From assembly GCA_019690095.1 (NCBI GenBank), contig JADGGD010000004.1, positions 1 to 64,000 on the forward strand: 64,000 nucleotides of DNA. The letters run 5' to 3'. The DNA comes from Chloroflexota bacterium. GTDB lineage: Bacteria; Chloroflexota; UBA6077; FW602-bin22; CADDYW01. The notes beneath the pieces are model-generated. The model searched no databases and was not told the DNA's origin. It worked only from the letters and a program-made list of their open reading frames with translations. Below are positions 54,880 through 56,452 of the stretch, piece by piece; the first letter of the stretch is position 1; each line of letters starts with the position of its first letter. Position numbers and translations under genes: made by a program.

Positions 54880-56452
<1,573 letters not shown>

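Follow-up and report, generated by a model that had tools for sequence, protein, structure and literature searches.

A divergent 16S-23S rRNA operon was identified at positions 54880–59670 of the 64,000-nucleotide stretch of DNA analysed here (the window), contig C16 of the metagenome bin G000 (3.8 Mb), which belongs to an uncultured Chloroflexota-like bacterium. The operon is a paralogue of the ordinary rRNA, from which it differs by ~27%, and consists of a 16S-like gene (54880–56452; RF00177, 1193.5 bits) and a 23S-like gene (56688–59670; RF02541, 1947.3 bits), which, like all elements of the operon given below, lie on the forward strand. Both genes match their Rfam models over the full length, yet with unusually low scores; another 16S in the same bin scores 1466.7 bits and ends in the tail GATCACCTCC. 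Neither a tRNA in the spacer nor a 5S gene at the end, both common but not universal in rRNA operons, was found in the window operon. Genes for a hybrid histidine kinase and a response regulator lie directly 3′ of it (60144–63537), and the region 41764–43140 encodes a protein in which heptad-like LTARVDTLTARMDE repeats follow one another over a long stretch, probably as a coiled coil.

The carriers of the divergent operon are fragmented MAGs. A divergent 16S was present in all four genomes of the family that were examined (G000–G003) and also in a genome from another family of the same order (G006), where it is truncated at a contig end. Of 400 genomes of the phylum, four contained a diagnostic 25-mer (≤2 mismatches), each of them from the family of the window; the site lies beyond the truncation in G006, which therefore falls outside that count. 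The window 16S is 71–74% identical to the ordinary 16S of the class and 82–85% identical to the other divergent copies; the divergent 16S copies are 80–88% identical among themselves and 70–77% identical to the ordinary 16S of the class, and the corresponding values for the 23S are 84–86% and 67–73%. The divergent 16S sequences form one clade (support 100/100) inside the Chloroflexota clade (99/97), on a stem of 0.46 changes per site, and because of this long branch the exact branching point is uncertain. In G001, G002, G003 and G006 the operon occupies a common position, divergent from a BON-domain gene, and the synteny thus spans two families. A search of viral contigs yielded no match. Sequencing error was rejected as a source of the unusual sequence, because the changes are common to other genera: two of these have the same kind of 16S, with tails that also lack CCTCC. 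These data indicate that the divergent operon is ancient and that at least five genera, belonging to two families, have inherited it. The divergent rRNAs of G001 (G001:C42:14252–16012 and 10611–14013; L183 and L184) carry extra insertions of tens to ~100 nt in both the 16S and the 23S, including the L1 stalk and the GTPase-associated centre, and the same contig contains a cobalamin riboswitch (61.3 bits, L183 1439–1584).

At the 3′ end of the 16S, the loss of the anti-Shine-Dalgarno sequence noticed in the original prediction was confirmed: after helix 45, CTG-ACGCAAATGC replaces CTG-GATCACCTCC, and CCTCC is absent from the 90 nt that follow the tail. The element in the place of the anti-Shine-Dalgarno (56440–56449) differs in each relative, the tails of G002 (CTG-GACCCGTTTCGTT) and G001 (CTG-ACAGTAGCTTGTC) being likewise without CCTCC and unlike each other. 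Helix 45 (56421–56436, GTACGGGAACGTGCGG), with its GGAA loop (the KsgA site), and the subsequent CTG, ending at 56439, are intact, and none of the 19 conserved positions in this region is changed in the three full divergent copies. The helix and its loop are thus kept, as had been stated, but the swapped base pair to which attention had been drawn is ordinary elsewhere: GCCGTACGGGAACGTGCGGCTG, matched exactly, is found across many Bacteria and Archaea, with CCTCC following in 113 of 117 occurrences, and the swap was discarded as a clue.

Use of AGGAGG-type sites by the window genes, also part of the original prediction, was confirmed: AGGAG or GGAGG precedes a start in 20 of the 41 heuristically called genes, whereas control positions give 4.6. 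A 30S subunit made with the divergent RNA would, as had been argued, possess no anti-Shine-Dalgarno and would be unable to make use of this genome's AGGAGG sites. The additional suggestion that such a subunit might favour leaderless or specially led mRNAs was not supported: the tail is unconserved, sequences complementary to it are not enriched in the window (16 found, 17.6 expected), and residues that any mRNA needs are altered, namely A1493, the 530 loop, G926, C1397–C1399, the P-loop and the sarcin-ricin loop. The hypothesis that the tail represents a new anti-Shine-Dalgarno was rejected because it is not conserved among the relatives, and also in view of the unenriched complement. The missing anti-Shine-Dalgarno is one symptom of a larger change that extends across the whole operon.

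A second operon with CCTCC, for which a search had been recommended, does exist: in G001, an ordinary operon with a CCTCC tail lies 3′ of recR on a 217-kb contig (C1). In G000, contig C138 ends 317 bp after recR, inside an ordinary rRNA leader with a sigma70 promoter and boxA, and the recR contig of G002 ends 76 bp after the gene; the RecR proteins of G000 and G002 are 88% and 84% identical to that of G001, respectively. Because of this ordinary operon and the AGGAG/GGAGG gene starts, the cell is considered to have ordinary ribosomes, to which the divergent RNA is an addition. The opposite arrangement, in which the divergent operon is the only rRNA of the organism and the ordinary copies in the bins are contaminants, would agree with the fact that G002 and G003 show the divergent copy alone and with the probable contaminant status of G000:C20, but it is already contradicted by the operon after recR in G001, by the ordinary leader at the end of the G000 recR contig and by the use of AGGAGG, and we regard it as extremely improbable. 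The 16S on G000:C20 was rejected as the ordinary 16S of this organism, since its boxA is unlike that of C138 and the tree places it in another order. Two further 23S genes in the bin, on G000:C20 and G000:C100 (L014 and L003), are 24% apart and are preceded by boxA-like elements that do not match those of the family; both contigs are probably contaminants of the metagenome bin.

Residue changes were read from an alignment with E. coli (MG1655) and a 57-sequence panel; on this reading, many decoding and catalytic residues of the divergent rRNAs are altered, and some of them have adopted a new state common to all copies. Among 284 universal 16S positions, 19–20 are changed in the full divergent copies versus 0–3 in ordinary copies, and among 722 universal 23S positions, 72–86 are changed (86 in the window copy) versus 3–15; 53 of the 23S positions are altered in all three full divergent copies, 42 of them identically. 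The changes are concentrated in the translation centres, i.e., the 530 loop, the decoding neck, the peptidyl-transferase ring, the P-loop, the sarcin-ricin loop and H69, with little change in the binding regions of S7, S8 and S15 (0–1) and at 23S positions 1–900 (9–11 of 238). In the 16S, they include A1493U, U531C, C526A/G, G926U, C1397A, A1398C, C1399U, U1495C and A1500G. In the window copy, the alignment places C526A, U531C and A532G in the 530 loop (55400–55422), C1397A, A1398C and C1399U in the 5′ strand of the decoding neck (56302–56317), and A1493U (56403), U1495C, A1500G and A1503C, with A1492 kept, in the 3′ strand of the decoding centre (56401–56413). In the 23S, C2452A, A2453G, U2506C, U2584C, C2496U, A2058C, G2253U, A2439U and changes at H69 1914–1918 and C2394 were found, and the altered parts of the window copy comprise the peptidyl-transferase ring, the P-loop, H69, the GTPase-associated centre, the E-site and the L1 stalk. 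Six changes in the peptidyl-transferase ring are common to all three full copies, and the core changes there, in H69 and in the decoding neck are mostly identical across these copies. The window copy alone has A2450G together with C2063U, a single case in which the geometry of a non-Watson-Crick peptidyl-transferase pair is kept. The sarcin-ricin loop region of the window (59372–59463) has acquired an insertion of ~68 nt that folds into hairpins, and its GAGA tetraloop has become GCAA, the tetraloop in the relatives being GGAA. A1492, A2451, A2602 and G2553 are kept; the universal decoding residues are not all retained, as A1493U occurs in all three full copies and G530A in G001 and G003, and the P-loop residues G2251 and G2252 are lost in single copies. 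Inspection of the alignment also showed that none of the primer sites 338, 515, 806 and 1492 is unaltered, helix 12 with the 338F site (55233–55262) being enlarged by insertion in all five divergent copies; 16S surveys would therefore miss the operon. Among the reference sequences, an E. coli “complete genome” record (L199; NZ_CP091836.1, 1798480–1799999) contains a 1520-nt 16S that appears Firmicute-like by eye, together with an E. coli-like 23S (17 differences from MG1655), and is probably an assembly chimera.

A spare ribosome proof against toxins or antibiotics would provide one rationale for this pattern, since the altered sites presumably coincide with the targets of colicin E3, MazF/RelE, sarcin/VapC, macrolides, thiostrepton and viomycin: A1493, the anti-Shine-Dalgarno, A2660/G2661, A2058, the 1067 region and H69 residues are all changed. 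However, these changes would impair translation too, and since the targets are universal functional sites, any loss of function would be expected to produce such an overlap; we consider such a role very unlikely.

Retention of the ribosomal fold was evaluated by projecting the Rfam structure through E. coli onto the divergent copies. Standard pairs account for 88–90% of the 16S pairs in the full divergent copies (88–94% in a 55-sequence panel) and for 86–87% of the 23S pairs (91–94% in the panel). Pairs in which both sides differ from the ordinary G001 copy are still standard in 60 of 69 cases in the 16S and 123 of 134 in the 23S, whereas shuffle nulls give 12.5 and 25.2, respectively; between the divergent copies of G000 and G002, 23 of 31 (16S) and 41 of 54 (23S) doubly changed pairs are standard in both. 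Both RNAs thus keep the ribosomal fold through compensatory changes. One-sided pair changes are commoner in the divergent copies than in ordinary rRNA and pairing is looser, and therefore constraint is partly relaxed but still present. Sites conserved across bacteria vary ~3–10 times less than variable sites among the divergent copies; the shared changed sites vary in 19–23%, unconstrained sites in 31–35% and the other universal sites in 6–10%, and the GTPase-associated centre and the tail keep drifting.

These observations bear on the chief rival explanation, a specialised full second ribosome whose decoding and catalytic centres would have been rebuilt and which would translate a restricted group of mRNAs, recruited otherwise than by Shine-Dalgarno pairing. 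Such a ribosome would explain why both subunit RNAs are kept together, why the core changes are so largely identical and why the shared changed sites vary less than unconstrained ones; the preserved geometry of the A2450G/C2063U pair and the precedent for variant rRNA in Vibrio (PMC10697612) are also in its favour. In contrast, A-to-G changes at 1492 and 1493 are reported to be dominant lethal with defective protein synthesis (PMC5270523), and ordinary decoding with A1493U is therefore unlikely. The loss of G530 in two copies and of P-loop guanosines in single copies, a sarcin-ricin loop that is changed in all copies and interrupted in the window, the drifting GTPase-associated centre and the unconserved new tail also argue against active translation by such a ribosome, and a search for a dedicated S12 paralogue found none, S12 being single-copy and canonical. 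On balance, the specialised ribosome is judged unlikely.

Upstream of the operon, the best candidate promoter is a sigma54 (−24/−12) element, CGGCACGTACCTTGCG, at 54758–54773 (shuffle p=0.004); the 64-kb window, in which 0.5 exact matches to GGCACN5TTGC are expected, contains no other. Elements of the form GG-N10-GC were identified upstream of all five divergent operons (shuffle p at most 0.004 each), and none of 11 ordinary rRNA leaders has a significant sigma54 site (lowest p 0.052). A sigma70 promoter was sought at the five divergent operons and was absent from all of them, strong sigma70 sites being found in most ordinary operons with leader sequence; rpoN is present in all five carrier genomes. 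A sigma54-type promoter is therefore predicted to replace the sigma70 promoter at the divergent operon.

The putative transcript also contains antitermination and processing signals. A boxA-like element is located in the leader (CCTTACCAG, 54840–54848, aligned in the divergent leaders) and another in the spacer (CCTTACCAA, 56601–56609, conserved in the spacers of G000, G001 and G002), the form in leader and spacer being CCTTACCAA/G. The TTACCA variant is also found in the ordinary rRNA leaders of the family (G001:C1 and G000:C138), whereas TTAACA or TTGACA is found in T. roseum and in most of the rest of the class; the change from TTAACAA to TTACCAA is thus common to the ordinary and divergent operons of the family. 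Since the divergent lineage is older than the separation from G006, boxA seems to have changed in parallel in the two operons of this family, as would be expected if both relied on the same antitermination machinery. RNase III-type stems, together with boxA, bracket both divergent rRNAs; they were scored by a longest-complement test, duplex energy being uninformative in GC-rich DNA. The 5′ arm of the 16S stem (AGAGAGGATCG, 54853–54863) is an 11-nt perfect complement of the 3′ arm (CGATCCTCTCT, 56546–56556), a length equalled in none of 1000 shuffles, although the 16S stem of G001 is marginal (p=0.064). The arms of the 23S stem (ACGCACGGTGA, 56609–56619; TCACCGTGCGT, 59690–59700) are complementary at p=0.001, and the 23S stem of G001 and G002, ACCGAAGAGCGAT(C), is wholly different from the window pair, yet complementary.

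A more conservative rival, in which a duplicated operon is decaying under relaxed selection and its fold is left over from the parent, would account for the altered universal sites, the variability of the tail, L1 and GTPase centres, the extra insertions in G001 and the window and the excess of one-sided pair changes over ordinary rRNA. A pseudogene, however, would be marked by lost constraint on structure and signals; here, despite some relaxation, compensatory change is ongoing among the divergent copies, conserved sites remain the less variable, processing stems have been replaced in a compensating way, boxA has changed in step with the ordinary operon, and the sigma54 promoter has been kept in five genera. 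Decay is accordingly rated as quite unlikely.

The genes adjoining the operon in G001, G003 and G006, in divergent orientation, encode a BON-domain (OsmY-like) protein, a zinc-ribbon protein of the BCAM0308/NMD3 kind and a member of the HPF family. In G002, BON and NMD3-like genes lie beside the operon and HPF is not adjacent; in G000, the genome of the window, the BON, NMD3-like and HPF genes are on contig C10, away from the divergent rRNA. Sigma54-like sites upstream of BON (−59 to −82) in four genomes are individually weak (p 0.016–0.06) but alike in position. A survey of 13 genomes from the order detected the BCAM0308-like gene in every one of the five carriers and in one of the eight remaining genomes. 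The link to NMD3 is a weak profile match, and a fold check with a model of moderate confidence found no PDB match below E 0.001. A BCAM0308/NMD3-like gene without adjoining HPF, BON or divergent rRNA was observed in G007 (L238; G007:C4, 3347–3901), and in G002 a kinase similar to that 3′ of the window operon adjoins the BON/NMD3-like genes.

This arrangement suggests that a stress-type promoter turns on the divergent operon along with genes for ribosome hibernation. We infer that it is expressed conditionally, that its RNAs assemble with ordinary ribosomal proteins, that the product does not carry out normal translation and that it has a role in dormancy. Activation of RpoN, most plausibly by low oxygen or starvation to judge from the neighbouring genes, would lead to transcription and processing of the operon, and the divergent RNAs would then take up the ordinary ribosomal proteins of the cell and form subunit-like particles. 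These particles could not start on Shine-Dalgarno mRNAs and probably could not decode normally; in dormancy, they might hold ribosomal proteins in store, sequester them or act as partners of hibernation factors, rather than serve in bulk translation of mRNA. We therefore favour, with some confidence, a maintained paralogous rRNA operon that specifies a conditional, non-canonical particle, most likely non-translating and related to hibernation, this dormancy role being suggested by the neighbouring genes and the promoter. The fuller picture, of a second, sigma54-switched ribosome-like particle with rebuilt centres that has discarded start-site recognition and has a job in dormancy other than ordinary translation, is put forward tentatively, at slightly less than an even chance. 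The operon is of interest because the fold, promoter, antitermination and processing signals are kept while residues for decoding and peptide-bond formation are changed, and because the promoter is of a regulon type rather than a growth-rate type. If the RNA is made, it would offer a natural experiment that uncouples selection for ribosome assembly from selection for translation, and would point to a second ribosome-like particle in dormancy.

To our knowledge, every known maintained rRNA operon encodes RNA for translation, and a search of the open-access literature found neither a sigma54-driven rRNA operon nor a maintained rRNA with altered decoding and peptidyl-transferase residues. Two classes of rRNA operon with retained secondary structure in one genome are known from Scytonema hyalinum (7.3–9.0% divergence), Thermoanaerobacter (11.6%) and Haloarcula (~5%), and the largest cited intragenomic 16S divergences without gross indels are 7–9% (PMC5658200); the window operon differs from these cases in its divergence of ~27% in both subunits, its changed universal residues, its lost anti-Shine-Dalgarno, its sigma54 promoter and its maintenance across two families. 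HPF-family proteins and BCAM0308-like stress genes are tied to low oxygen elsewhere, as exemplified by RafH, a hypoxia-induced mycobacterial HPF of the DosR regulon (PMC10799931), and by BCAM0308 in the low-oxygen-activated lxa locus of Burkholderia (BCAM0275–BCAM0323; PMC6127331); unlike the window lineage, these systems consist of proteins that act on ordinary ribosomes and include no dedicated rRNA operon. The closest precedents are the variant-rRNA ribosomes of Vibrio and the second 16S tail of Alteromonas. In Vibrio vulnificus, the rrnI operon resembles the operon described here in that it is retained alongside ordinary operons and has a link to stress genes. It gives rise to active specialised ribosomes that translate hspA and tpiA (PMC10697612), whereas the window operon has altered translation centres. 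Alteromonas has two conserved 16S tails, the variant standing beside an ordinary copy, and 128 organisms lack the anti-Shine-Dalgarno, so that 16S without CCUCC, or with a varying one, is not confined to the present lineage (PMC6107228); in Alteromonas, however, the variant tail is conserved and the tail alone is reported to be altered, whereas in the window lineage the tail is unconserved and the whole rRNA is divergent.
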